64,000 nucleotides of DNA from positions 1-64,000 of the forward strand of contig NZ_KI518170.1 in NCBI RefSeq assembly GCF_000479045.1, written 5' to 3'. Made by a program: the position numbers and the translations under genes. Below, piece after piece: positions 8,129 through 44,926 of the stretch. Positions within the stretch are counted from its first letter, which is position 1. Every line of letters begins with the position of its first letter. This DNA comes from Cetobacterium somerae ATCC BAA-474. GTDB taxonomy: Bacteria > Fusobacteriota > Fusobacteriia > Fusobacteriales > Fusobacteriaceae. Below the pieces are notes generated by a model. That model did not search any database and had not been told where the DNA came from. It worked only from the letters and a program-made list of their open reading frames with translations.

Positions 8129-9304
8129 ATGAGAGTACTTCACACTTCTGATTGGCATTTAGGCAAAAAGCTTGAAGGACAATCAAGAATATTAGAACAA
8201 AAACTATTTATTAATGCTCTAGAGACAGTTATAAAAGAGGAAAACATTGATTTAATTCTTTTAGCGGGAGACATATACGACACTTATAATCCATCAGCTG
8301 AAGCTGAGAAGCTATTTTTTGACAGTATAAAACAGTTATCTTTAAATGGTGAAGTAGGAATTATTATAATTCCTGGAAATCATGATAATCCTCAAAGATT
8401 AACTGCTGTATCTCACTTAGCTAAAGACTATGGAGTTATAATCTATGATAGTGCATTTCAAGAAATTAATATCGGAAAATACGGCACTCTAAATATTTAC
8501 AACTCTGTTCCAGGTGGAATTTTCATAGAAAAAAACAATAAAAAAATATATATATACAATCTTCCATTTCCAAGTGAAGCTACTTTAAATGAAACTTTTG
8601 ATGATGTCAAGTTCAATACTAGAATCAAAGAGATTTTAGAAGAGGGTGTTCGTTACAATAACGAAAATATACCTAGTGTAGTAATGACTCATATCTATGT
8701 GGCTGGATCTATGGGAGAGGGTGAAGTTGCTTTAGAACTTGGAGGCTCACGTGCAATTTCTACTAGTGATTTACCTGATGTCGATTATATAGCTTTAGGA
8801 CATGTTCATAAACCAATGTGCTTTGCAAACAAAAAAGCTTACTATTGTGGTTCTCCTATCGAGTATAGGGTAACTGAAAATAAATTTGATAAAAAGGTTT
8901 TTGTAGTTGATATATTAAAAGATTCAACTACTGTAAAGGAAATACCTTTAGAAAATTATAAGCCTATTAGAGAATATGATGTAATTGGAGCAGATGAGGC
9001 TATCAATAAATCACTAGAACTTATCGATAAAAACGAATGGATCTATTTAAATGTAGAGTTAGAAGAACCTCTTACAAATTCTGTTATTAGAAAAATTAAA
9101 TCTAATAAAAATATTTTAGAAATAGTTCCAATCGTAAAAACAAAATCAAAAGAAATTGAAGTTACAAATTGTAACGAACAAACTCTTGAAGAGGCTTTTA
9201 TTGAGTTTTATAAAGAAGAAACAATGGGATTACCTCCAAATGACAACATAACGAAACTTTTCTTAGAAATTTTAGAGGAGGGAGAAAGTAATGAGACCAA
9301 TTAG
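8129..9304 (+). CDS. sbcD: SbcD nuclease subunit of the SbcCD DNA repair complex
   Basis: A 391-residue Mre11-family, Mn-dependent endo/exonuclease that cleaves hairpins and protein-blocked DNA ends with SbcC. Phosphoesterase motifs are in order: DWHLGK (residues 7-12), AGDIYD, PGNHDNPQR, MTHIYVAGS and GHVHKP. The C-terminal third is the less conserved capping domain. AGGAGGGG precedes the ATG. The last 14 bp overlap sbcC, the usual coupled arrangement. Confidence 0.96.
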   Translation: MRVLHTSDWHLGKKLEGQSRILEQKLFINALETVIKEENIDLILLAGDIYDTYNPSAEAEKLFFDSIKQLSLNGEVGIIIIPGNHDNPQRLTAVSHLAKDYGVIIYDSAFQEINIGKYGTLNIYNSVPGGIFIEKNNKKIYIYNLPFPSEATLNETFDDVKFNTRIKEILEEGVRYNNENIPSVVMTHIYVAGSMGEGEVALELGGSRAISTSDLPDVDYIALGHVHKPMCFANKKAYYCGSPIEYRVTENKFDKKVFVVDILKDSTTVKEIPLENYKPIREYDVIGADEAINKSLELIDKNEWIYLNVELEEPLTNSVIRKIKSNKNILEIVPIVKTKSKEIEVTNCNEQTLEEAFIEFYKEETMGLPPNDNITKLFLEILEEGESNETN

Positions 9305-12299
9305 ATTAGAAATAACTGGATTGCAAAGCTTTTCTAAAAAGCAGGTAGTTGACTTTGATGCCCTTACAACTCTTGGACTTTTTGGTATTTTTGGTGAAAC
9401 TGGAAGTGGAAAATCTACAATATTAGATGCCATGATTTTTGCAATATTTGATGAAATACCAAGAACTATGGGTAGTAAAGGAAAAAATATAAGACCATGT
9501 TTAAACCAAGATAGTAATACTTTAGAGGTTTATTTTAAATTTGCACTTGGAAAAGATATCTTTGAAATAACTAGATGTTATAAGAAAAAGTTTTCTAGAA
9601 AGGGTGAAGAGAAGTTTGAACAAAGTAATCCCATTTTAATTTTAAATGGAGATGTTATAGCTGATACAGTTAAAAATGTAGAAAGTAAAATAAATGAATT
9701 CTTTGGTATAAATGTAAATGATTTTACGAGATCAGTTGTTTTACCTCAGGGTAAGTTCAGTGAGTTTTTAAAATTAAAAGGTGCTGACAAAATGACTATG
9801 TTAGAAAATATCTTCGATTTAGAAAGATATGGAACTAAAATGTCTGAAAAAATAAAAATTAGAAATAATAAATTGAAAGAGGAGATCACCTCTTTAGAAA
9901 ACCAAATTAAAGGAAAAGGTGATTGTTCCTTAGAAACAATAAATAATCTTAAAACCACTTTAACAACTAAAGAGGAAGAATATAATAATCTTTTGTCGAG
10001 TAAAAAAGAACTATCTCAGGAATATAATGAATTAAAAGAACTAAAAGTTTTATTTGAAAAACTAGAGTCATATATATATGAACTTCAAAGATTAGATTTA
10101 GACAAAGAGGATATTAATCTATGTAAAAATATCTTAAGTAAGCACGAAGTTGCACAATCTTTCAAAAGTATTATTGATGAAATAACAAATCTTAAAGAAA
10201 GTATTTTAAATAATCAGACTAGTCTTTTAAAATCAAAAAATACTTTAGAGAATCTAAACTCCGCTCTTGAAATTCTTAAAGAACAAGAAAAAGAAAAACA
10301 ACTTGAATTAGACAAATTAATGTTAGAACTAGATAATTTAAAAGTGGATTATACTGAACTTGATAACTTACGTAAAGGAGATCAATATATTAGATCATTA
10401 AAGTTTAAAGAAAAGCTTTTAGAAGAAACTTTAAAGGATTCTGACTCAATATCTTCTGATTTAAAATCTTTATATGAAAAATTAAAAATTGATAGTGTAT
10501 CACTGGAAAGTGAAAATAATAATCTTCAAAATCTTGAGAAAATAGATAAAGATAAGCTAATCTCTCTTGAAAATGAAATAAAAAAATTAAACACTGATAT
10601 TAAATTATTAGAGGAAAAATTAAAAGAAAAAAATAAATTAGAGGCTGAGATTAAAAAAGAAAAGGCTTTAAAAGATTCAATAGTAATAGAGTTAGATAGT
10701 TATTTGAAAAAAATAGAAAATATTAACAAACAGCATCTTGAAAGTAAAGCTTTCGAAATATCTAAAAATCTTATCCATGGAGAATCTTGTCCTGTTTGTG
10801 GATCAAAGGATCATCCAAATCCAGCTAAAGAGATTCAAAGTATAGACACATCTATTTTAGATGAATTATCTAAAACAAAGGAGCAGTTAGAACGAACTAT
10901 AGTAGAAATAGATACAAAACTTAATTATCATCTTGAAAAATTAAGTGAATTAAATGAATTAGATAATATAGATAATCTAAAAAATGAGCTTCAAATTAAA
11001 GAAAATATGATAGGTGATTTAAAAGTTAAAGAAAAAGAGCTTTTAGAAAATGAAAAAGAGTTAAATAATAAAATTTCTACTTTAAAATCAAATATAAAAA
11101 ATTATTCATCTAATATAGCTCAAAAAGAAAGTGAGTTAAATAAGATTAAAGAAAAATTAACTATATATGAAAAGGAAATTTTAGAGGAGAGAGAGAATAT
11201 ATCTTTACTTAAACTTGAAAGTGATTCTTTAGATTTTATTAGTAGTAGAAAAACCCTACTAGAAAATATGGATAGAGAGTATCGTGAGGTTTCTAATAAG
11301 AAGGAAAGTTTAGATATATCTCTTCGAAAAGTAAGAGATAATATCTTCAAGGATTTTAATACTATTCAAACTCTTTCTCTTGAAGTAATTAGTTTAGAAG
11401 AAAAGAATAATCATTTAAAAGATACTTATAATGATAAAAAAGAGTGGCTGAAAATAGAAGCTACTAAAAATGGATTTTTGTCTATTGAAGACATATTAAA
11501 ACATATCTTAGAGGATAGTAAAATAAACATATTAAAGGATAAAATATCATTATATGAAATAGATAGTATAAGATATCAAAGTTTAAAAGACGAGATAATA
11601 AAATCTATTGATAATAGAGTTTTTAATAAAGAAAGATGGAATGAGTTAGAAGAAAAACTTGAAGCTTTAACAACTCAAGAGCAAAATCTTTTTAAAGAGA
11701 TTACAGAGCACAAAGGCGATTTAAATAGACTTGAACAACTAGCTCAAGAGTCTAAAGAGCTTTTAGAAAAAATAGATAAACTTACTTTAAAACAAGATGA
11801 TATCATTATTCTTCAGAAAAAATTTGAAGGAAGAAAATTTGTAAAATTTTTAGCTAGAAAAAAATTAGATTATATTGCTTACGAAGCATCTAAAAGATTA
11901 CAAAAAATTACAAGAGGTCGATATATTTTAACAGTTGACAATAACTGTGATTTTAATATTATAGATGCTTTTAATAGTAATTTTACTAGAGAGTGTTCAA
12001 CACTTTCAGGGGGAGAAACTTTTATTGTATCTCTTGTATTAGCACTAGCTTTATCTAGCCAACTACAGTTAAAAGGAAAAATACAACTTGAATTTTTCTT
12101 TTTAGATGAAGGATTTGGAACTTTAGATGCCACTCTTCTTGATAGGGTTATTGAAATTCTAGAGGAGATTAGATGGAAAGATGCAATGAAAATAGGAATT
12201 ATAAGTCACGTTGAGGACTTAAAAATTAGAATTCCAAGAAGATTAGAAGTTACTCCAGCAATTCCTGGAGAATCAGGTAGTATAATAAAATTAATATAA
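9291..12299 (+). CDS. sbcC: SbcC ATPase subunit of the SbcCD complex
   Basis: A 1002-residue Rad50-like SMC protein. Walker A GETGSGKST is near residue 35. Two long Leu/Lys/Glu heptad coiled coils (about 180-490 and 515-840) flank a zinc hook with Cys500-Pro-Val-Cys503. The C-terminal lobe has the signature LSGGETF and Walker B FFLDEGFGTLD. It dimerises through the hook and drives the SbcD nuclease. Length is normal for the family. Because it overlaps sbcD, the two are made together. Low-complexity Lys/Glu/Leu content is explained by the coiled coils. Confidence 0.96.
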   Translation: MRPIRLEITGLQSFSKKQVVDFDALTTLGLFGIFGETGSGKSTILDAMIFAIFDEIPRTMGSKGKNIRPCLNQDSNTLEVYFKFALGKDIFEITRCYKKKFSRKGEEKFEQSNPILILNGDVIADTVKNVESKINEFFGINVNDFTRSVVLPQGKFSEFLKLKGADKMTMLENIFDLERYGTKMSEKIKIRNNKLKEEITSLENQIKGKGDCSLETINNLKTTLTTKEEEYNNLLSSKKELSQEYNELKELKVLFEKLESYIYELQRLDLDKEDINLCKNILSKHEVAQSFKSIIDEITNLKESILNNQTSLLKSKNTLENLNSALEILKEQEKEKQLELDKLMLELDNLKVDYTELDNLRKGDQYIRSLKFKEKLLEETLKDSDSISSDLKSLYEKLKIDSVSLESENNNLQNLEKIDKDKLISLENEIKKLNTDIKLLEEKLKEKNKLEAEIKKEKALKDSIVIELDSYLKKIENINKQHLESKAFEISKNLIHGESCPVCGSKDHPNPAKEIQSIDTSILDELSKTKEQLERTIVEIDTKLNYHLEKLSELNELDNIDNLKNELQIKENMIGDLKVKEKELLENEKELNNKISTLKSNIKNYSSNIAQKESELNKIKEKLTIYEKEILEERENISLLKLESDSLDFISSRKTLLENMDREYREVSNKKESLDISLRKVRDNIFKDFNTIQTLSLEVISLEEKNNHLKDTYNDKKEWLKIEATKNGFLSIEDILKHILEDSKINILKDKISLYEIDSIRYQSLKDEIIKSIDNRVFNKERWNELEEKLEALTTQEQNLFKEITEHKGDLNRLEQLAQESKELLEKIDKLTLKQDDIIILQKKFEGRKFVKFLARKKLDYIAYEASKRLQKITRGRYILTVDNNCDFNIIDAFNSNFTRECSTLSGGETFIVSLVLALALSSQLQLKGKIQLEFFFLDEGFGTLDATLLDRVIEILEEIRWKDAMKIGIISHVEDLKIRIPRRLEVTPAIPGESGSIIKLI

Positions 12300-33899: not shown

Positions 33900-35582
33900 T
33901 TATTGTTGATTTATAAATTTAACTGCGTTCTCTCCTGCAATACGTCCAAATATAACTGCAGCACTGTATGCAGCACTACTGTTTGTAACTTCTCCTGCAG
34001 CGAATACTCCTGGAACTACATTTCCTTCTACATCTAAAACTTCAGTTTTTTCGTTTGCTACTACTCCACCTCTAGTCATATGAACAGCTGATTCAACCTG
34101 AACACCATAGAATGGTCCCTCTGTTCTGAACTCTCTTTTAAATGGTTTTGCTCTAAATGGATCTTCTTCTTCTCCACGTATCGCTTTATTGAAATGATCT
34201 CTTGTAGCTACTAGCTTATCTGCTGGTACACCTAATTTTTGTGCTAATTCTTCTAAAGTATCAGCCTTTACATGATATCCTTTTGCAGTGTGCTTTTGTA
34301 AACGGTAACTTGCTTCATATAAAGCTTGATCATATATATAGAATGCCTTTCCATCTGGTTGAGCTAATATTGTTTGAGCAGCTTTAAATCTATCATTTTT
34401 AGAGATATTTTCATTTAAGAATCTTTCTCCCTTTGCATTTACAAGCATAAATCCATCTCCACCACCAGTTAAATCTCTAGTAGTTCTAACTATAAATGGG
34501 AATAAATTTAGTTCATCTAAATTAGCTAATTGCATATTATTTTCTTCAAATACAGGAATAAAATCACCCGTTGCTCCAAGTTGATTTGAAGTTTGAAGTT
34601 TTTCAGTTCCAGGAGAGTATTTAGCTAACAACTCCTTATTTGATGAAAATCCTCCAGTTGCCATAACAACAGCTTTTGCCTTTATATCATAAAAGTTATT
34701 TCCATTTTGAACCTTAACTCCTTTAATAGCTCCATTCTCTACTATTAAATCTGTTCCTTTTGTCCCTGTTCTTATATCTATACCTAAACTTTTAGCTTTT
34801 GCTTCCATTCCATCTTGTACTTCTTCTCCAGCATAAGCATCTTTTTCAGCCATATGCCCTCTTTTTCCGTAATAATGATTTAATTTTACTCCCATTTCTC
34901 TTAACCAAGAATCTAATTTTGAAGCTCCTTCTGCTTGAGCTCTAGTTCTTTCTGGAGTATCCATCCAGTTTGTATTATCAGCAATTAATTTCTCAACAGA
35001 ATCCTCTACACCTGCTTTTTTCTCTGCTTCTGAATTAATTAAGTCATAGAAATTCATATCGTACTTTCCATTTCCACTTAATATATCTAATTTTTCAATT
35101 AATATTATATTATTTAATCCAGCTTCTTTTGCAGATATTGCTGCTGCAAGACCTGCTGGTCCTCCACCAACTATAACTAGGTCTGTAGATACTGGCTCTA
35201 AATATGCCACTGGTTGCTCTGGTCCTGCTGTTTTTACAGTTATTCTACCAAAATCTTTTCCACCCTCTTTTAATGCTGCAGCCACTGCTCTTTTAACTCC
35301 TAAAGATGTGTATGTTGCTCCTGATACACTATCAACTATTGGAGATTGAGCTTTTAAAATTCTATCTTTTAAAATTGGAAATGATCTTGACATTATATGT
35401 GAAGTTTCATTATCTGAAACTAATTCAAGATTTTCAATCTTATCTCCTTTTGTGATTACATTTACTTTAATCTCTCCAGAAAATCCATTTCCTTTACCTA
35501 TAATAGACTTTTCCTTCTCACCGCAAGCCATTAACATTAAACTTGCTAACAAAATTGCTAATTTACACCTGTTTACTTTCAT
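33900..35582 (-). CDS. Flavinylated, FAD-dependent fumarate/urocanate-reductase-like lipoprotein
   Basis: A 560-residue exported lipoprotein with lipobox LMLMAC (Cys20). Residues 35-105 form an FMN-binding domain containing D84-SVSGA-T90, matching the ApbE flavinylation motif Dxx(S/T)GAT. Thr90 should therefore carry covalent FMN. Residues 115-560 are a flavocytochrome-c-type FAD reductase (VIVGGGPAGLAAAISAKEAG; ATGGFSSNKELL; HMTRGGVV near the substrate site). Relatives reduce fumarate, urocanate, acrylates or other alkenes as respiratory acceptors outside the cytoplasmic membrane. The actual acceptor is not predictable by eye. It stands alone, with a long inverted repeat before its start codon. 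Confidence 0.9.
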   Translation of the reverse strand: MKVNRCKLAILLASLMLMACGEKEKSIIGKGNGFSGEIKVNVITKGDKIENLELVSDNETSHIMSRSFPILKDRILKAQSPIVDSVSGATYTSLGVKRAVAAALKEGGKDFGRITVKTAGPEQPVAYLEPVSTDLVIVGGGPAGLAAAISAKEAGLNNIILIEKLDILSGNGKYDMNFYDLINSEAEKKAGVEDSVEKLIADNTNWMDTPERTRAQAEGASKLDSWLREMGVKLNHYYGKRGHMAEKDAYAGEEVQDGMEAKAKSLGIDIRTGTKGTDLIVENGAIKGVKVQNGNNFYDIKAKAVVMATGGFSSNKELLAKYSPGTEKLQTSNQLGATGDFIPVFEENNMQLANLDELNLFPFIVRTTRDLTGGGDGFMLVNAKGERFLNENISKNDRFKAAQTILAQPDGKAFYIYDQALYEASYRLQKHTAKGYHVKADTLEELAQKLGVPADKLVATRDHFNKAIRGEEEDPFRAKPFKREFRTEGPFYGVQVESAVHMTRGGVVANEKTEVLDVEGNVVPGVFAAGEVTNSSAAYSAAVIFGRIAGENAVKFINQQ

Positions 35583-35671: not shown

Positions 35672-36598
35672 TTAAAAAACATATTCAAAACCACATCTAA
35701 TTTTCATATATAGTCCAGATTCTGAAACATTTGAAAATTTTGTTTTTACTTCTTCAAAATTATATCCAGTTATTCCAATTTTTGCAAAAATTCTCAACTT
35801 CTCCGTTATATCTTGACTGTATAATAAGTACGGTCCTACATTGAATTTAAATGATTTATCTTGATCTGTATTCTTGTAGTAGTTATATGAATCAATTTCT
35901 GAATCTAATGAAAATGCAAAATTTTCATTTAAATCATATGTCCATCTAAAATTGTTTTCAATTCTAAATAAATAGGTTCCTCTATTATTTCCATAATCTA
36001 AATACTCATTATATATTGTGAAAAAATTCTGGAATCCATAACCTAAATTTATACTTCCTGTTAAGTTACCCTCTAAGGAATATCCATCTCTAGAATTTGT
36101 ATCAATAGATGAAAGAAAAAAATCAAATCCCCAATAAGCTCCACCCAATCCTATATCTGAATTAGTACGAACTCTATATCTCAATGAGTATTTATTTTCT
36201 TTAAAGTTCTCTCCAAAATCACTCGATATATCACTTACATTATATTTAATGTAGGGGCCTATATCGCTAAACCAATTTTTTCCAAAAACTTCTTTTTCCT
36301 CTAATTTCCTATATAAAGAAAAGGTATTTTCCCATCCATCTGTATTAGAATTTTTATCATATTTTTTTTCAATATCATAATCAAAAGTCCAATTGTCATT
36401 TAGTTTTGATGTACCCGTTCCTATTTTCCATTTGTAATATTTTTTTCCATCTTTATTTTCTAGCTCTCCATAGCTCTGATATAGATTGTTTTCTGGTTCT
36501 TCTAAATAAAAATTTAATATCTCCCGTCCAACACCAAAAGAACTTAAATGAAGTAGTAGAAATGTACATATAATATTTTTAATATTCATCTCCAACAT
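35672..36598 (-). CDS. Outer-membrane beta-barrel-like protein at the end of the Pel-like operon
   Basis: A 308-residue exported protein. The signal peptide is about residues 1-24 (KNIICTFLLLHLSSFGVG). The rest alternates aromatic and polar residues in 10-12-residue strands (YSLRYRVRTNSDIGLGGAYW; FFTIYNEYLDYG) and ends in Phe (CGFEYVF), as outer-membrane barrels do. I do not recognise a named family. Its 5' end overlaps pelG by 20 bp, so it belongs to the operon. It could be the export pore or a surface anchor, replacing the missing PelB porin, which is inference only. Met4 at 36589 is an alternative start. Confidence 0.8.
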   Translation of the reverse strand: MLEMNIKNIICTFLLLHLSSFGVGREILNFYLEEPENNLYQSYGELENKDGKKYYKWKIGTGTSKLNDNWTFDYDIEKKYDKNSNTDGWENTFSLYRKLEEKEVFGKNWFSDIGPYIKYNVSDISSDFGENFKENKYSLRYRVRTNSDIGLGGAYWGFDFFLSSIDTNSRDGYSLEGNLTGSINLGYGFQNFFTIYNEYLDYGNNRGTYLFRIENNFRWTYDLNENFAFSLDSEIDSYNYYKNTDQDKSFKFNVGPYLLYSQDITEKLRIFAKIGITGYNFEEVKTKFSNVSESGLYMKIRCGFEYVF

Positions 36599-38690
36599 AC
36601 ACTCCTTTTCTATTAAATCCTTCTCTATCTACTCCATTTTCATCATAACCATTTTTATCGTAACCATCTTTATCATAAATATTCTCATATGACGCGTCAT
36701 TTTCATTTTCAAAACCTTCTATTGGTTTTTTGTTTCCATCTTTATCATAACCACTTTTATTATAACCCTCTTCATTATATCCTTCATAGTTATACCCATT
36801 CTTATTATAATAATTATTTGTTTCTTTATTTAAACCATACCACGTCCATCCATTTTTATCAAACTCTGTTTTTGTTTCCTTGTTTAACCCTTGAAAATCA
36901 AATCCTTTTTTATCATATTTAGACTTAGTTATTCTATTATATCCGTTATAATCAAATCCTCTTTCGTCAATATTTTTTCCTGTATCACTGTTTATTCCAC
37001 TAAAATCAAAATTAAAATAGTCATACGGTGAGTCTGTATATATGTTCCATCCCTCTTTTGTAAATCCTCTTGAATTAATTCCCTCTTGATTATATCCATC
37101 ATAATTATATCCTTCTTTATTATAATAACTCATTGTATTCCAATTTCTTTTAGTTTTTCTATTAAATCCATCTTTTGTATGAGTACTTGTACAACCACTT
37201 AAAAATAAGAGTATAACTATTATTAGCGGAAAAATTAATTTGCGATTTAGTATCTTTTCTAGTTTCTCAAGAAAAGGAGCTTTAATATTAAAAGAAAAAT
37301 TTTGCTTATAAAAAGTAATATAATTTAACTCTTGAGCTATTCTATCTAGCATTATTTCTGATAAAATAAGGGATAAAAAAGCTGCTACAAAAAATCCAAG
37401 TCCTGTATATTCATTTCCCATTAATGATGTTATTATTGAAAAAAAGGTACTTAAAATGAAAAATACAATTGATATTAATAACGCCTCTTTTCTAGAATCA
37501 AAATATAAAAATATAGTTATATATACAGATATAAAAACCGTACAATAAGCTGCAAAAATCATGACTCTAAATAGATCTAGTAAATATAAATCCATTCCAT
37601 ATTTTAAAAATATTACTTTAGATAAAAGAGCTACTGAAAATGAAACAAAAAATTGAAGCTCCATTATATAGTAAATCTCCTCTTTTAATACATCAATCAT
37701 TTTTTTCTTTTCAACATCTATATCTACTAAGTTTCCATTTAAAGTTAGAAGAGCGTAATATCTTTTATAAATTGGAAAAAACTTAGTTTCCATAAATACT
37801 AAAAAATAAATCATAGTTGGAATTGTTAAAAAGAAAGCATAAAATACTGCAACCTCATATAATGGAGAGCTTAAAAATACTCCTCCTACTCTATATGAAT
37901 CACCATATATCCAATTTACAAATATATGAGACCACATTCCAAAATTAAAAAATATTCCAATAAAACTTAAAGAGGTATATCTCTTGAAAGCTCTTAAAAA
38001 CTCAAACTCACTTTCATCTGAATCTTCAAATATATATGTTAAATATGAAAAAAGCATAAAAAATGTTATTCCTATTCCAATTGTATAAGCTAAAATAATT
38101 GAATAAGCTAGATTATTTTTAAAAAATTCATTATTTGAATATTTTAAAATATATCCTCCTAAACCTACCGCTACAACATTTCCTATAACATAAGCTAATA
38201 TCGAATAACTATAGTTCTTTACAGCTGATATATAATTCATACTTACCCAAATTCCTGATAAAAAACAAAATAATGCAGTTAATGTATATATGTAAAACCA
38301 CGATAAATCCTGTCCTTTAAAATATAAAACACCTATAAAAAATGATATTATAGTTATAAATTTTATTGTTCCTATATATGTTGATTTTAATTTTTTTTGT
38401 TCTCCTGAGTATATACAATCAGATATAAATCTCGTTATTAAATATTGAACTGCTCCAGTTAAAAGTTGAGAAAATATGAACGAATAAACTATTCCTGTCA
38501 TAAATAGATTTCTCTCTCCTCTTGAAAGAATATATTGTTTTCCTATAAACATAAGAATATTTAAAGTTATAACAGTTATGAGCCATGGACCTACTCCAAT
38601 AAGGGCTGAATAGGCCATGGCCTTTATATCTTGAAACGTATTATTATCCTCTGAAAACAGATTTTTCAACTCAAATCCTATTCCTGCCAT
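36579..38690 (-). CDS. pelG: PelG-like polysaccharide membrane protein fused to a lipobox-bearing repeat domain
   Basis: A 703-residue protein. Residues 1-460 match PelG: start MAGIGFELKNLF, SALIGVGPWLITV, QYLITRFISDCIY, and about 12 membrane segments in the polysaccharide-transport (MOP-like) fold that helps polymerise and export Pel with PelD, PelE and PelF. Known PelG proteins end near 456 residues. Here the frame continues through a further hydrophobic segment (484-499) ending in a lipobox-like LFLSGC (Cys500), then about 200 acidic Tyr/Gly/Asn/Asp-rich repeat residues. The fusion is in frame with no stop. The next gene starts inside its last 20 bp. Whether the protein is cleaved at Cys500 is unknown. 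Confidence 0.88.
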   Translation of the reverse strand: MAGIGFELKNLFSEDNNTFQDIKAMAYSALIGVGPWLITVITLNILMFIGKQYILSRGERNLFMTGIVYSFIFSQLLTGAVQYLITRFISDCIYSGEQKKLKSTYIGTIKFITIISFFIGVLYFKGQDLSWFYIYTLTALFCFLSGIWVSMNYISAVKNYSYSILAYVIGNVVAVGLGGYILKYSNNEFFKNNLAYSIILAYTIGIGITFFMLFSYLTYIFEDSDESEFEFLRAFKRYTSLSFIGIFFNFGMWSHIFVNWIYGDSYRVGGVFLSSPLYEVAVFYAFFLTIPTMIYFLVFMETKFFPIYKRYYALLTLNGNLVDIDVEKKKMIDVLKEEIYYIMELQFFVSFSVALLSKVIFLKYGMDLYLLDLFRVMIFAAYCTVFISVYITIFLYFDSRKEALLISIVFFILSTFFSIITSLMGNEYTGLGFFVAAFLSLILSEIMLDRIAQELNYITFYKQNFSFNIKAPFLEKLEKILNRKLIFPLIIVILLFLSGCTSTHTKDGFNRKTKRNWNTMSYYNKEGYNYDGYNQEGINSRGFTKEGWNIYTDSPYDYFNFDFSGINSDTGKNIDERGFDYNGYNRITKSKYDKKGFDFQGLNKETKTEFDKNGWTWYGLNKETNNYYNKNGYNYEGYNEEGYNKSGYDKDGNKKPIEGFENENDASYENIYDKDGYDKNGYDENGVDREGFNRKGVYVGDEY
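36590..37178 (-). repeat. Degenerate YDxxGYN-type repeats encoding the PelG C-terminal domain
   Basis: Residues about 505-700 are built from an imperfect unit of roughly 7-8 residues, with examples YNKEGYN, YDGYNQEG, FDYNGYN, YDKKGFD, YDKDGYDKNGYDENG and REGFNRKG. The composition is rich in Tyr, Gly, Asn, Asp and Lys, net acidic. At DNA level the repeats are diverged, so this is an old array rather than a recent slippage tract. Confidence 0.85.
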
Positions 38691-38691
38691 A

Positions 38692-40104
38692 TTATTCTCC
38701 TAACTCTTTATATAATCTTTTATATGAATCTATAAATTTCTTTTTTGAATAGTATTTTTTAACTATCTCTTTTCCATTTTTTCCCATCTCATTTATTTTT
38801 TCTCTATTTTGAAAAAGTGAAACTATAGCATCTCCTAAATCAGAGTATGAAGTTGGTGGTACAATTATTCCTGCTTCTCCTTCAGATTTTTCTTTTAAAA
38901 TTTCTCTACAATTTCCAACATCTGTAGCTATAAAAGGAATTCCACAAGCTAATCCTTCTAATATGCTAAGTGGTTGTCCTTCTGAAATTGATGTTAACAT
39001 TAAAAAATCTAAAAATTTATAATAATCTTTTACATCTGCTCTTCCTGTAAAAGTAACATAATCTTTCAAATCTAAATTTTCTACTAATTCTAAGCACTCG
39101 TTATAATACTCCTCATTTTCCTCTGTAGGTCCTATTAAAAAAAGTTTAGTATTTCTCAGCTTAGGTAACGCCATTTTAAATCCCTTTAGCATCATTTTTA
39201 CATCTTTTATAGGAACGACTCTTAAAACTGAACCAATATTAAACCCTTCTCTTTTTTCTCTTATAACTTTAGAATAAGATTCAATATCAATACCATTTGG
39301 AATTACTTCACACTTTTTTGAATCTGCTCCATTTTCAATTTGAAGTTCTTTATTGTAGTCAAATAAAGATATTATTTTATCACACTCATCATAGGTTAAT
39401 CTTGATAAAAAGTAAAAAAAATCTATCCATATTTTTTTAAAATCTTTCTCTATCCATTTAGCACCAATAACTTCTTCCTCTCTTTCACGTGGATAAATTC
39501 CATGTTCTGTTAAAAGCAATGATCCACCATTTTTTATTTTTCCTAGTGCGGATACATATCCAGAGTACCCTGTTGCCACAGGATGATATATATCAGCTTT
39601 TGGCAACTCCTCTTGAGATAAAGATATTAAATTTAAAAATATATTTCTATATGTCCAATAAAAAGTATTAAATCCAATTCCATCATAATTTTGCTTGTAG
39701 TATTTTAATAAACTATTCCAAAAACTCTTATTTATTATTATCTCCAATGGATTTCCATATTTTTTATCTGATATTTTTTCTATTATTTTTATAACTTCTT
39801 CAGAATCAAGATTATTAAAATTTAAAATTTTTTCTATCTCTTCCTCTAATTTCTTAAATTTAAATCTATTTTTAAAAACTTTAAACGGTGAAATCTCATA
39901 ATTTTTATCCAAAATTATATTTTTAATCTCTGTAACATTTTTAGGTATTTCATATTTTATTTTTGCAAAATCTAAATTTGGTATTATACATACAATTGAG
40001 AATAAATGTTCTTCATTGGATTTTACTAAATCCTGAATCCATGAAGATACTCCACCTACAACATATGGATAAGACCCTTCGCATATTAAACAGATTTTTG
40101 CCAT
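38692..40104 (-). CDS. pelF: PelF-like cytoplasmic glycosyltransferase
   Basis: A 470-residue GT4-type enzyme that polymerises the Pel backbone from UDP-hexosamines at the membrane. The N-terminal half begins with CEGSYPYVVGGVSSWIQDL, hallmark of PelF (DUF3492). NGIDIESYSKVIRE and SVLRVVPIKDVKMMLKGF precede the catalytic E-x7-E segment EGQPLSILEGLACGIPFIATDVG. It is soluble. The start overlaps the PelE-like gene by 19 bp and the stop is 1 bp before pelG. Confidence 0.94.
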   Translation of the reverse strand: MAKICLICEGSYPYVVGGVSSWIQDLVKSNEEHLFSIVCIIPNLDFAKIKYEIPKNVTEIKNIILDKNYEISPFKVFKNRFKFKKLEEEIEKILNFNNLDSEEVIKIIEKISDKKYGNPLEIIINKSFWNSLLKYYKQNYDGIGFNTFYWTYRNIFLNLISLSQEELPKADIYHPVATGYSGYVSALGKIKNGGSLLLTEHGIYPREREEEVIGAKWIEKDFKKIWIDFFYFLSRLTYDECDKIISLFDYNKELQIENGADSKKCEVIPNGIDIESYSKVIREKREGFNIGSVLRVVPIKDVKMMLKGFKMALPKLRNTKLFLIGPTEENEEYYNECLELVENLDLKDYVTFTGRADVKDYYKFLDFLMLTSISEGQPLSILEGLACGIPFIATDVGNCREILKEKSEGEAGIIVPPTSYSDLGDAIVSLFQNREKINEMGKNGKEIVKKYYSKKKFIDSYKRLYKELGE

Positions 40105-40964
40105 TTTTTAACCTCTTTCAACATTTCATAATCATTTAAATCATAGTAATATTTTTCTATAAATTCCACTATTTTCTCATCTAAATCTTTTTTTTCTATA
40201 AGTTCTTGAATTAGTCTATTACACGCTTTATAATCTTTCATATCTTTATAAATAGTTAAAAGATTATATTTATCAATTATATCTAAATTTTCTTTTGACT
40301 TTGCAATATCTATGTATTTATTTTGATAAAATTCTAAAATCTCTCCAAGCAAAAGTCCTGAAGTACAATAATCATAATATATTTTAGAAAGTTCATTTGA
40401 GTCTTTTAACATCTCTTTTTCCTTTATAACCTTTTGAAAATTTTCATCAATTTTATTTATCTCTGTTGCTGCATAGTGTATAACTTCTATATCTTCATCC
40501 CACAGTGCTTTTTTTAGAACATCGACCTTAAACTTTAAATTTTGAGTTTCAAAACCAATTAAAAAGTTTTTCTTTTCTGTTGGAGTTCCAACTGCCAAGA
40601 TATCATAAGCTCCTATTAAATTAAGATCAATTGAGCTATTTACAATTATTTCTTTCTCTTCATTTAAAATATATTTTTCTAAATTCTCATTTATTTCAAT
40701 ATCACTTTTAAAATATTCTCTAAAAAATAAAAAATTATTTATTAAAGCCATAACATATCCAACTATAGGAAAAATTAAAATAAAAATATCAAATTGATTT
40801 TCTCCTAAAAATAATCTATTTAAATATATAAAAATTAAAGCTAATGAAAAATGAGAAATCCAAAAGTATGATCTGAAACTTAAGAGTCCATTTTTAAAAT
40901 AAAAAAATATTAGAATATCTAATATAAGAAATATAAATATGAGGAATATCTTTTTTATTTTCAT
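40086..40964 (-). CDS. pelE: PelE-like membrane/helical-repeat protein
   Basis: A 292-residue protein. Three hydrophobic segments (about 5-25, 33-50, 58-80) precede a long cytoplasmic helical region that looks TPR- or HEAT-like (YDYCTSGLLLGEILEFYQ; YNLLTIYKDMKDYKACNRLIQEL). PelE proteins have two membrane helices and TPRs, and stabilise the PelD-E-F-G synthase complex. Sequence identity is too low for assignment without context. Position between the deacetylase-like gene and pelF supports it. Confidence 0.7.
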   Translation of the reverse strand: MKIKKIFLIFIFLILDILIFFYFKNGLLSFRSYFWISHFSLALIFIYLNRLFLGENQFDIFILIFPIVGYVMALINNFLFFREYFKSDIEINENLEKYILNEEKEIIVNSSIDLNLIGAYDILAVGTPTEKKNFLIGFETQNLKFKVDVLKKALWDEDIEVIHYAATEINKIDENFQKVIKEKEMLKDSNELSKIYYDYCTSGLLLGEILEFYQNKYIDIAKSKENLDIIDKYNLLTIYKDMKDYKACNRLIQELIEKKDLDEKIVEFIEKYYYDLNDYEMLKEVKKWQKSV

Positions 40965-42793
40965 TATAAATCCTCCAATATTATTTTAACTTCTGGGTCT
41001 TTTGCTGTCACAATATAAAAAGATTCATTTTCACTTTTGTTAATAAATTTAAAATCGCCACCTAGGACTTTAATTATTTTTTTATTTTTTATTTTAAAAT
41101 GTGAATCAAATTGTCCTCTATAGTTTTTTATATTTATGAAAACATTGTTATCCTTCTTTTCATATTCTAAATCAATATTTTCTATAACACTATAATCATA
41201 TGTCATTTCACTTTGAATTTGTGATTTTAAAACTGGATAGTTACTATTTACAGTTGAAAATATTCTTTCAAACTCTGCTTTTAACTCTTCCCAAGATTTA
41301 CCATTTCCTCTCTCTTTATCCATAATATCGTCTGGATGTATAAAATGTGAAAGATATCCATATGCTCCAATAGCATTATATATTTGCCAAATAACTGTAT
41401 CTGTATAGAAAAATCCAGATGACATTCTAGGAAGGGAGTATATATTTTTAAAATCTGGATCTCTTCCTACTTCTTGTAACAGTAATCCCGGTTCATTCTC
41501 TCCATAAAAAATTCCACAAAATACTTTTAAATTTGTAAATGTTTCCACTATAGCTTTCTTCCCACTTACAGGTAATAGATTACTTGGTGCTACATAACTA
41601 TAAATATTAAAATTTTCACCATAAATATTTTCTATTTCATCCTTTGCTACTGTTAATCCTTTTTTCATTGCATCAATGCTTTCCCATGGTGTATATCCAT
41701 AATCTTCATAATCAATCTCTTTTTCCAATCCTAAAGAGTAATGATTATATCCATGTAATCCTAATTCTCCACCTATCGATTTTAGTTCTCTTCCTCTTTT
41801 ACTAAGATCATCAAACGTCTTTTTTCCAACTCTGACTATTTTATCTTTAATAGTTAAATCGTTATACTCAATTATAATAAATCCTGTCATTTTTAATCTT
41901 TGTCTTTCTGCAATTCCCATCATATCTTGCCACCAAATAAGATTAAAAAATCCTGAAGTATCCATTCCATACTCTTTTTTTATAATTTCATTTTGAACTA
42001 CTGGAATTGGTGATGGGAAATCATCAATTTGAAGTATTTTAGAATTTAAAATTGGAAAAAATGTAACATCTTCAATATAAGCTATTAATTGCTTCATTAC
42101 TCCTCTAAAAATTTTACCTTGAAATAATGTGGTATTACTAAAAAATACTTTTCCCTCTCCATATTTTCTAATCCACATTAAAGGTTCATTATTATCTGTT
42201 GTAGCTATCACATCAATATCTTTTTTTAAATTCATTTTTAGTCCCGAGCTACCAAAGATAATACTTCCAGGTTTTAAATCCTTTAATCCTGGAAATATAT
42301 CTTTTTTTAAATTGAAACTTTTAGTTTCAATAAATTCACCAATTTTTTCTATCCCAGCCATTTGATTAAAAGGACTTCTATAAGATCTTTGAGTTATAAA
42401 AAGATTTCCACCTTTTTCAACTCTCTCTTTTATTCCTAAAAAGTTTTCCTTTAATAAACCACTATAATTTTCTACTGCTAAGATTATTAAACTATACTCA
42501 GAAAAATCTAAAGCTTTATCTGTTGAAATTGAAATTGAGTCATACTTAACTTTTGAAAAATTAAAAACCTCTTCTAATCCATCTTTTATATCTTGACTTC
42601 CCTCACTTCCATCTCCGTATAAAATAAGATATTTTTCAGGTTTTTCTATTTTTAAATTTCCAGATACTGGAGTTGGAAGACTAAAATTATAAATCTGTTT
42701 TAAATTAAATATATCTTCCAAATTTTTTATTCTTAACTCTTGAAAAAAGAATACTGCTATTAGTACTAGACCTAATATATATTTAGATTTCAT
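40964..42793 (-). CDS. DUF2194/PelA-like polysaccharide deacetylase, membrane-anchored
   Basis: A 609-residue protein with an N-terminal membrane or signal segment (ILGLVLIAVFFF). Residues about 50-245 form a flavodoxin/GATase-like domain and 250-510 a NodB-like deacetylase region. Candidate metal residues are Asp-Asp in ILQIDDFPS, His-x3-His in GLHGYNHYS, and His in SHFIHPDD. A C-terminal beta domain follows. It resembles the deacetylase half of PelA, which removes acetyl groups from Pel in the periplasm. The frame has a TTG at 42802. The ATG at 42793, with AGGAG nine bases upstream, is preferred and overlaps pelD by 11 bp. Confidence 0.85.
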   Translation of the reverse strand: MKSKYILGLVLIAVFFFQELRIKNLEDIFNLKQIYNFSLPTPVSGNLKIEKPEKYLILYGDGSEGSQDIKDGLEEVFNFSKVKYDSISISTDKALDFSEYSLIILAVENYSGLLKENFLGIKERVEKGGNLFITQRSYRSPFNQMAGIEKIGEFIETKSFNLKKDIFPGLKDLKPGSIIFGSSGLKMNLKKDIDVIATTDNNEPLMWIRKYGEGKVFFSNTTLFQGKIFRGVMKQLIAYIEDVTFFPILNSKILQIDDFPSPIPVVQNEIIKKEYGMDTSGFFNLIWWQDMMGIAERQRLKMTGFIIIEYNDLTIKDKIVRVGKKTFDDLSKRGRELKSIGGELGLHGYNHYSLGLEKEIDYEDYGYTPWESIDAMKKGLTVAKDEIENIYGENFNIYSYVAPSNLLPVSGKKAIVETFTNLKVFCGIFYGENEPGLLLQEVGRDPDFKNIYSLPRMSSGFFYTDTVIWQIYNAIGAYGYLSHFIHPDDIMDKERGNGKSWEELKAEFERIFSTVNSNYPVLKSQIQSEMTYDYSVIENIDLEYEKKDNNVFINIKNYRGQFDSHFKIKNKKIIKVLGGDFKFINKSENESFYIVTAKDPEVKIILEDL

Positions 42794-43994
42794 ATATTTC
42801 AACTCCTGGAAGAATTTCAGAAACCCTTTTTATTAAAACATCTTTACTTTCTCTATTAGCATTTACAAAAAGAAATTTTATAGTCTCCTCACTCATTCCT
42901 ACAACATCTATATCTCTAACTTTTCCTTTTAACTTTTCATTCAATTCTTTTGGTGTAAAATTTGGATTTCCAGCTTCTAATGCTATATATTCAGATCCAA
43001 ATAATTTTTTTCTTTTCTTATCCTCTTCTAAAATATATGAAAAATATTGTAAATTATATATTCTTGTGTTTTCATATGAATTTTTTAATATTTCAATCTC
43101 TGCCTTATCAAAAGCATTTACTAAAGCATTATTAATCCACTGGCTTATTACCTTAAACAATTCTAATAGATATTTTTCTTGATTATTATATTTTAATCTT
43201 TCTATGTTTACAATTCCAACAACTTCTTCGCCCTTCAAAATTGGAGCTACATAAACAGGATTTTTTATATTTAAATCTCTATTCCCTTCTAGTGTTTCTT
43301 TACTTTTTAAAACTTTAGAGTATATATCTCCCTCTTCTACTATTATAAAGTTTGGAATTACGCTATTTCCTATTTTTACTCTTGCTCTAAACGTATTTCT
43401 CTCTTTATTGTATATATATATCGATACTACGTCACTTCCTAAAAAATCTGTTAATATCTGCAAAATTTGTGTAAATATTTTTTCTACATTTTTAGTTAAT
43501 ATTGAAGATGTTATTTGATGTAGAGTTAAAATGCTTTCTTTACTTCCCACTATTCTACTTTTTAATCTTTCATTTATATTCACTAATTCTAAATTTTTTT
43601 CTCTTTGATTTTGATTTTTTTCTTCTAAGATTTTATTCTCATCTTTTAAATCATCAATTTTTTTTCTAAGATTATCAGAAAATCTTCCAAGGGATAGGGC
43701 AATAAAAAAGAAAAGCAAAATAAATTTATAATAACTAAAATCTAAAAAGAACACAACTAAATCATTGCCTAATTGATAGTAAGCAAGAATATAAAATAAT
43801 GAGGCTATTATAACCGTTTGTAGACTAATATAGACTCCATATTTTAATGCCATTATTCCTATAACAATAGTTAATGGTTGAATATTCATATTTAAGAAAT
43901 CACTTTTAAAATTTGAAAAATAAAAAAATATTAAATATATTGCTAGACAATATACAATACTTTCAACTATACTTAAAATAAAATTTTTTTTCAT
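42783..43994 (-). CDS. pelD: PelD-like c-di-GMP receptor (TM-coiled coil-GAF-degenerate GGDEF)
   Basis: A 403-residue inner-membrane protein. Four hydrophobic segments lie in 1-100, a coiled coil at about 108-145 (FSDNLRKKIDDLKDENKILE), a GAF domain at about 155-295, and a degenerate GGDEF domain at 310-403 without a catalytic GGDEF. R360-D-I-D363 is an RxxD motif in the region equivalent to the inhibitory site that binds cyclic di-GMP in Pseudomonas PelD. It is predicted to switch on the Pel synthase when cyclic di-GMP rises. It lies 12 bp after the hydrolase gene. Confidence 0.9.
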   Translation of the reverse strand: MKKNFILSIVESIVYCLAIYLIFFYFSNFKSDFLNMNIQPLTIVIGIMALKYGVYISLQTVIIASLFYILAYYQLGNDLVVFFLDFSYYKFILLFFFIALSLGRFSDNLRKKIDDLKDENKILEEKNQNQREKNLELVNINERLKSRIVGSKESILTLHQITSSILTKNVEKIFTQILQILTDFLGSDVVSIYIYNKERNTFRARVKIGNSVIPNFIIVEEGDIYSKVLKSKETLEGNRDLNIKNPVYVAPILKGEEVVGIVNIERLKYNNQEKYLLELFKVISQWINNALVNAFDKAEIEILKNSYENTRIYNLQYFSYILEEDKKRKKLFGSEYIALEAGNPNFTPKELNEKLKGKVRDIDVVGMSEETIKFLFVNANRESKDVLIKRVSEILPGVEIYEI

Positions 43995-44006
43995 AAAATA
44001 CCACCT

Positions 44007-44906
44007 TTAAAACTGCTCATAAGTGTCTATAGTATCTAAATAGTACCCATCTACTCCTATGTCATCTAATTTTTTCTGATAATTTCTTATAATCTCTTTC
44101 CACTGAGGACTCCAATATTTTATTATAAAATTACCTTCCCAATTCTCATTCTCTTTAACTATCCATTCAGGTAGTTTTTTATTCCAAGAATTATGCCAAT
44201 AACCTCTATAATTTTCTGCTTCTCCTATACTAAAATAAGCAATTATCAATCTTCGAGTTCCATTTTTTCTTATTTTTAAAGATTTGATTTGTTCTTTTGT
44301 TAAAAATTTACCATTTAAACTAGGTTCTATAATTAATAAATCAAAATCTGTATTCTTTAAAACTCTATAGTAATCATCTACATTCTTAAATTTTTCAGGA
44401 TTTAAAAGATATAAAAAATTTTTAACTTCCTTTAAGTTAGTTACATTTTTTAAACTATTTTTTTGAAGAGGTTGAAAAATACTATTAGCACTATATGAAG
44501 AAACTGCTTCTCCCACAAAATTATATTTCTCTGTATCCTTTAAAATTTTACCTCTCAACTTTTTATCGTTAGCATAATTTACTGAAAATACTACTTTTCC
44601 CTCTTTTTCTATTTCAATTAAATTCTTTAAAAGATAATTTTTTTCATCTTCAGGAGTTGCTTCATTTATACCTCCAACACCATAAAACAATGATTCTTGG
44701 GAAACCCCATCTACATTTTTTATAAATTCCATATCCAATTTATCTCCATTAAAAAAAATATTAGTTCCATTTTGTGGCACTAATATTTTCTCTTTGGATT
44801 GGGTTTTTATCTGCTTTATAAGTTCTCTCATTTTTATTTTACTCACTTCATCCCCTTTTACAAAAGATATCATCGAAATAAATAGGAAAACTATAATTTT
44901 TTTCAT
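44007..44906 (-). CDS. Exported GH114/PelA-hydrolase-like glycosidase
   Basis: A 299-residue secreted protein. The signal peptide MKKIIVFLFISMISFVKG is followed by an alpha/beta region and the TIM-barrel hallmark segments IAYFSIGEAENYRGYW and GVDGYYLDTID with acidic catalytic-site residues. It resembles endo-alpha-1,4-polygalactosaminidases (GH114/GH166) and the hydrolase half of PelA. It probably trims or processes the exported polymer. An ATG at 44918 is in frame, but the GGAGAGG site points to 44906. Here the hydrolase and deacetylase of PelA are separate genes flanking pelD. Confidence 0.85.
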   Translation of the reverse strand: MKKIIVFLFISMISFVKGDEVSKIKMRELIKQIKTQSKEKILVPQNGTNIFFNGDKLDMEFIKNVDGVSQESLFYGVGGINEATPEDEKNYLLKNLIEIEKEGKVVFSVNYANDKKLRGKILKDTEKYNFVGEAVSSYSANSIFQPLQKNSLKNVTNLKEVKNFLYLLNPEKFKNVDDYYRVLKNTDFDLLIIEPSLNGKFLTKEQIKSLKIRKNGTRRLIIAYFSIGEAENYRGYWHNSWNKKLPEWIVKENENWEGNFIIKYWSPQWKEIIRNYQKKLDDIGVDGYYLDTIDTYEQF

Positions 44907-44926
44907 AAACCTCTCCATTCTTAAAA

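Follow-up and report, generated by a model that had tools for sequence, protein, structure and literature searches.

A 64,000-nucleotide stretch of Cetobacterium somerae ATCC BAA-474 (contig NZ_KI518170.1, positions 1 to 64,000; here called the window) contains an operon for Pel, which is among the most widespread biofilm polymers. Its genes lie in the order GH114 hydrolase, PelD-like, DUF2194, PelE-like, PelF and PelG-tail, and are followed by an open reading frame (ORF) of 308 amino acids (aa) (Table 1). This study concerns the PelG-tail gene, which a first-pass annotation had described as PelG fused in frame to a lipobox and a repeat domain. The fusion held up: its 703 codons contain no internal stop, 17 other Fusobacteriota copies are built alike, and the lipobox LFLSGC with Cys500 lies where it had been noted. 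The interval singled out in that annotation, 36579-37240, corresponds to residues 484-703 plus the stop codon. On the sequence evidence set out below, we think that fusobacterial PelG is probably a precursor of both an exporter and a lipoprotein, predicted to be cut by signal peptidase II (SPase II).

Residues 1-460 matched the PelG family PF16933 over profile positions 1-452 with 417.9 bits, against a cut-off of 29; beyond this match, the sole family signal in the protein was a sub-threshold hit to LPAM_1 at residues 489-500. In an AlphaFold2 (AF2) model with a mean predicted local distance difference test score (pLDDT) of 76, built from a 14-row alignment, 12 long helices matched MATE, MurJ and WzxE structures in Foldseek, and pelF adjoins the gene, as fits a PelG with the MOP fold. 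With 12 helices PelG would end on the cytoplasmic side, so that a thirteenth transmembrane segment (TM13) would carry the tail outside the cell membrane, and the basic linker that precedes it agrees with the positive-inside rule. The tail is thus predicted to be extracytoplasmic, as the first-pass annotation had supposed, rather than cytoplasmic. In the model it consists of many short strand bridges, with a pLDDT of about 85-91 over residues 540-650.

Fused and split forms of PelG

We searched relatives and 98 Fusobacteriota genomes, counting a PelG when it scored above the family cut-off, and found one in 24 genomes. The fused repeat tail was present in 18 copies including that of the window, with total lengths of 703-909 aa, one of them from Propionigenium maris DSM 9537 (L087), and in a tree of PelG cores these fusions formed a single clade (bootstrap/Shimodaira-Hasegawa-like approximate likelihood-ratio test (SH-aLRT) 100/99). 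Comparison of synonymous and non-synonymous differences revealed purifying selection on the codons of the core, the linker, TM13 and the tail, with a non-synonymous to synonymous rate ratio (dN/dS) of 0.08-0.19 for the tail. A missed stop codon or a sequencing error, for which the first-pass annotation had proposed comparing PelG lengths and ends in relatives, is excluded because the same architecture recurs in the 17 other copies, and the selection on the codons likewise led us to reject it. Accidental read-through into a functionless tail has the odd layout in its favour and nothing else; with 18 fusions in one clade, a constrained tail and a conserved Cys, we give it practically no credence.

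Cys is found at position 500 in 16 of the 18 fusobacterial fusions, and position 499 (-1 to the Cys) is small, Gly or Ser, in all of them; Arg or Lys occupies position 483 in 17 of 18 and position 484 in 18 of 18. TM13 otherwise drifts, with 33% identity between the window and the homologue L032. At the Cys500 site the two Cys-less fusions read ILGGKANA-AYDKRGF and IFGGKIKAS-TYDSRGF, which by the usual A-x-A rule may be sites resembling those of signal peptidase I (SPase I). The segment thus has the basic n-region, the hydrophobic core and the lipobox with Cys of a lipoprotein signal. It departs from such a signal in lying inside the chain, at residue 500, rather than at the N terminus.

An N-terminal form exists as a separate gene in a sister genus (g12). 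In its four genomes PelG is 513 aa long and ends right after a TM13 that lacks the Cys, and, where the downstream DNA was covered, the second half is encoded 20 bp downstream of pelG as a lipoprotein gene of its own. The product begins MKYIWIIIITILISGCTSYDEKGFNDTTHRNWHSMS, an ordinary lipoprotein signal, and is homologous to the fused tails starting at the Cys; its sequence MKYIWIIIITILISGC... bears GFN..T..RNWH.M, the start of the fused tails. The earlier statement that no separate lipoprotein start is obvious therefore stands for the window, where no ATG, GTG or TTG occurs between Met447 and Cys500 and a separate internal start for the tail was rejected, but not for g12. In three of the 18 homologues, Met stands where the window protein has Leu481.

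Two genomes of another genus (g3) carry PelGs of 1032 and 1050 aa (L044:8142-11240 and L045:4198-7359), in which a Cys-less TM13 leads into a different domain. The linker there is nearly neutral (dN/dS 0.87) and the following domain of ~340 aa is conserved (dN/dS 0.13). We considered that this extension might be a fused outer-membrane barrel and rejected the idea: profile comparison with real barrels was unsupportive, and its dyad-repeat z was about 0 to -1 as against 4.1 for the barrel of the window. It can be called only an unclassified conserved domain. A few further PelG copies are truncated or frameshifted. Broken pel genes include the PelG interrupted in L042 (G049) at 9209-11907 and the PelF frame interrupted in the pelF region of L044 (G026).

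Scanning named genomes for PelG gave 80 loci. In canonical proteobacterial operons the protein mostly stops at 456 aa, three residues past the conserved end. Sixteen PelGs of Paenibacillus, Brevibacillus, Psychrobacillus, Solibacillus and Rummeliibacillus measure 1029-1041 aa (loci L095, L096, L102, L105-L108, L112, L113, L118, L120, L124, L126, L147, L150 and L162); each runs into a hydrophobic helix, a lipobox and then a CotH kinase domain, which matched PF08757 with E 2e-64 and 2e-63 in two scanned fusions and was linked across all 16 by phmmer. The lipobox Cys is present in 16 of 16, preceded by Ala, Gly or Ser. In near relatives such as Cohnella, Paenibacillus dauci and Brevibacillus formosus, CotH instead has its own gene immediately after pelG, and most of these CotH proteins have a lipobox. 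The CotH fusions formed a single clade in the PelG-core tree, apart from the repeat fusions (bootstrap/SH-aLRT 100/100), and the two kinds arose independently. The CotH-fused bacteria are Bacillales, which are monoderm and have no outer membrane; whatever logic the fusions share, it cannot be passage through an outer membrane as such. A Planctomycetota PelG of 883 aa (L165:8001-10649) has a 433-aa acidic low-complexity C-terminal extension without an extra membrane helix.

The repeat tail and the predicted downstream barrel

The tail of the window protein contains 19 [YFW][DNTSH]xxG motifs, compared with 1.9 expected and a maximum of 6 in 2000 shuffles, spaced mostly by 5 or 13 residues. Among the fusions, tail length ranges from 204 to 409 aa and repeat copy number varies, with an aromatic content that stays at 0.16-0.20, which suggests contact with sugars. 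Neither Pfam nor NCBIfam matched the tail, and PDB sequences gave no usable match; phmmer hits to designed Pizza beta-propellers (E 7e-5) had no single stretch that passed, were judged compositional and were rejected.

Table 1. Features of the pel operon and of its PelG-tail protein in the window
Feature	Position	Strand	Basis
PelG-tail ORF, 703 aa	36579-38690	-	ATG start, no internal stop
PelG core (aa 1-460), exporter of the MOP/MATE type with 12 predicted helices	37311..38690	-	PF16933 E 7e-125; AF2; Foldseek
Basic n-region of the internal signal (linker, aa 461-483), expected to be cytoplasmic	37242..37310	-	alignment
TM13 (hydrophobic, aa 484-499) with lipobox LFLSG at its end	37194..37241	-	sequence and alignment
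Cys500, where lipidation and SPase II cleavage are predicted	37191..37193	-	Cys conservation among fusions
YDxxG repeat domain, aa 501-703, conserved start GFNxxTxxNWxxM	36582..37190	-	alignment, motif counts, purifying selection, AF2
Outer-membrane beta-barrel candidate, 308 aa, signal peptide and 14 strands	35672..36598	-	AF2, Foldseek, homologues in relatives
PelF glycosyltransferase	38692..40104	-	NF038011 E 3e-104
PelE-like membrane protein	40086..40964	-	position alone, no family match
PelA deacetylase-like protein (DUF2194)	40964..42802	-	PF09960 E 2.5e-95
PelD-like protein with GAF domain	42783..43994	-	GAF matches and operon position
GH114-type hydrolase, PelA hydrolase-like	44007..44918	-	PF03537 E 2e-11

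The ORF downstream of pelG, which overlaps its stop codon by 20 bp, has the predicted marks of an outer-membrane beta-barrel: a signal peptide, closed antiparallel strands and a C-terminal aromatic residue, with 14 long strands in an AF2 model (pLDDT 83). Its nearest Foldseek matches were CymA and OmpG, monomeric porins with the same strand number and overall fold, from which it differs in sequence (10-16% identity, TM-score about 0.5). In relatives with an intact fused pelG, a barrel homologue lies beside it; in g12 the homologue is upstream and divergently transcribed, with a profile match of E 1e-44. Beyond the barrel gene lies a 560-aa ORF for a lipoprotein-like, FAD-dependent reductase-type protein (33900-35582), a neighbour kept in close relatives.

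A PelC profile that matched 3 of 3 control genomes found no match in the 98 Fusobacteriota genomes, and PelB, a TPR scaffold with a C-terminal barrel, had no full-length match there, with weak partial stretches in 7. Because PelC and a convincing PelB were not found and a predicted barrel is encoded directly downstream of the intact fusions, a role in Pel export is plausible for the tail together with the barrel. Compared with the Pseudomonas-type pelABCDEFG, the window PelG is the same 12-helix MOP/MATE exporter with the same motifs beside PelF; the proteobacterial protein mostly ends near residue 456 and has PelB and PelC beside it, whereas here PelG runs on into a lipobox and repeats and both partners are missing. 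Like pelDEADAFG of Bacillus cereus (PMC7112168), the window operon has separate hydrolase and deacetylase genes (GH114 and DUF2194) and no PelB or PelC, but it differs in its order (hydrolase-D-A-E-F-G), its PelG-lipoprotein fusion, its outer-membrane barrel gene and its diderm host.

The first-pass annotation had gone further and proposed that the acidic periplasmic tail could guide a cationic polymer, like the electronegative PelC funnel, and so might stand in for PelC. The lack of PelC matches, the barrel next door and an isoelectric point (pI) of 4.9 for the window tail fit this idea. The acidity holds for the window and not for the family: homologous tails range in pI from 4.7 to 8.8 and in net charge at pH 7 from -23.5 to +6.7, so that conserved acidity was rejected, and these charges speak against a conserved electronegative surface facing the barrel, of the PelC type. 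PelC is a dodecameric lipoprotein (PMC12141448), and the tail is, by prediction, likewise a lipoprotein of a pel operon with a barrel; it is nonetheless unrelated to PelC in sequence and by profile, of another length and of repeat build, and encoded inside PelG. The modelled fold of short strand bridges, the CotH fusions in bacteria without an outer membrane and the YDxxG repeats outside pel operons also speak against the funnel, which we regard as very improbable.

These repeats are not specific to Pel, because within Fusobacteriota they also precede a helicase domain and turn up in further small proteins; in the window's own genome the module matched at the PelG tail only. The helicase example is a 913-aa protein (L047:8463-11204) with N-terminal YDxxG repeats and an SF1-type helicase/AAA domain, presumably cytoplasmic. 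Repeats like those of the tail are also found in other envelope-type proteins of the phylum. The tail might thus be a matrix or surface lipoprotein that reaches the cell surface after processing, with the Pel matrix or other glycans as its ligands and with a fusion to PelG that serves co-production only, as its aromatic and Gly-rich repeats of variable number would allow. We think this unlikely: no LolA or surface-export route was identified in the genomes searched, and the conserved non-repeat start GFNxxTxxNWxxM and the operon linkage suggest a dedicated partner.

A predicted route from PelG to a lipoprotein

In the reading that we favour, TM13 would be an internal signal peptide of the lipoprotein type that follows a 12-helix exporter and a basic cytoplasmic stretch. 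Sec would insert it with its N terminus in and its C terminus out, bringing the repeat domain into the periplasm; Lgt would lipidate Cys500 and LspA, the SPase II, would cut before it. Two products would arise side by side in equimolar amounts: a PelG exporter that retains the signal helix as its TM13, and a 204-residue repeat protein bearing a lipid. This lipoprotein may handle Pel between PelG/PelA and the co-encoded 14-strand barrel, replacing the missing PelB and PelC. Cleavage, lipidation, the membrane of residence and the export role of the tail are all inferred. This reading is supported because the Cys and the small residue before it persist while the rest of TM13 drifts, because SPase-I-like sites appear where the Cys is lost, and because g12 encodes the lipoprotein separately. 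The independent clade of PelG-lipobox-CotH fusions, with split CotH in near relatives, supports it as well, as do the lgt and lspA genes in the window's genome, the lack of PelC and the barrel next door.

Several observations weigh against this reading. A free N terminus is the normal context of lipoprotein signals, and a search of the open-access literature found no paper on a polytopic protein with an SPase II signal inside its chain. AF2 confidence is low at TM13 itself (pLDDT about 44), and the repeat module occurs outside pel operons. A search for LolA that worked on controls found none in the 98 Fusobacteriota genomes, which makes delivery of the tail lipoprotein to the outer membrane uncertain.

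Without cleavage, TM13 would act as a simple anchor, and this gives the main rival: an uncut tether that keeps the repeat domain at the mouth of PelG on the periplasmic side, with the lipobox lipidated and left uncut, or inert. A precedent comes from Lactococcus lactis OpuA, in which an extracytoplasmic substrate-binding domain is joined to the permease by an anchoring helix and a short linker (PMC11065425); OpuABC differs in being an importer, and its anchor is described as a plain helix and linker, in passages that do not mention a lipobox. The Cys missing from two fusobacterial fusions and the two g3 genomes, in which a Cys-less TM13 joins PelG to an unrelated conserved domain, also point this way. 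A tether gives no reason for a Cys preceded by a small residue in two separate clades (32 of 34 fusions), and it leaves the SPase-I-like replacements unexplained. We therefore consider it rather unlikely, and prefer the processed precursor.

Separate cotH genes have been described within Gram-positive pel operons (PMC7112168). Pel-linked CotH and the fusobacterial tail are alike as secreted or lipoprotein accessories encoded directly downstream of pelG, fused to it in Paenibacillus and relatives; the cargo there has a kinase fold, as against YDxxG repeats in Fusobacteriota. A survey of Pel does not mention Fusobacteria (PMC7112194), and pelF and pelG of Fusobacterium nucleatum appear as regulated genes or expression hits without comment on architecture (PMC12826042, PMC9848294). 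In the open-access literature, the scope of our search, no account of a PelG fusion came up, and a search there for papers on FbcH found none.

We put forward, as a possibility somewhat short of probable, that PelG has repeatedly been made a precursor whose internal SPase II signal would deliver an accessory lipoprotein, with a repeat protein as cargo in Fusobacteriota and CotH in Bacillales, and that Fusobacteriota export Pel without PelB and PelC by means of a lipoprotein and a 14-strand barrel. The locus offers a concrete candidate machine for the passage of Pel through the outer membrane in diderms that lack PelB and PelC, in a phylum known for its pel genes only through expression hits. 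If Cys500 is processed, the protein would join a polytopic transporter to a precursor that SPase II processes, and we found no report of such a design in the open-access literature. Natural split and fused pairs in two phyla make the precursor idea directly testable, and the two fusion types suggest that Pel secretion machines can be built in a way not recognised before.
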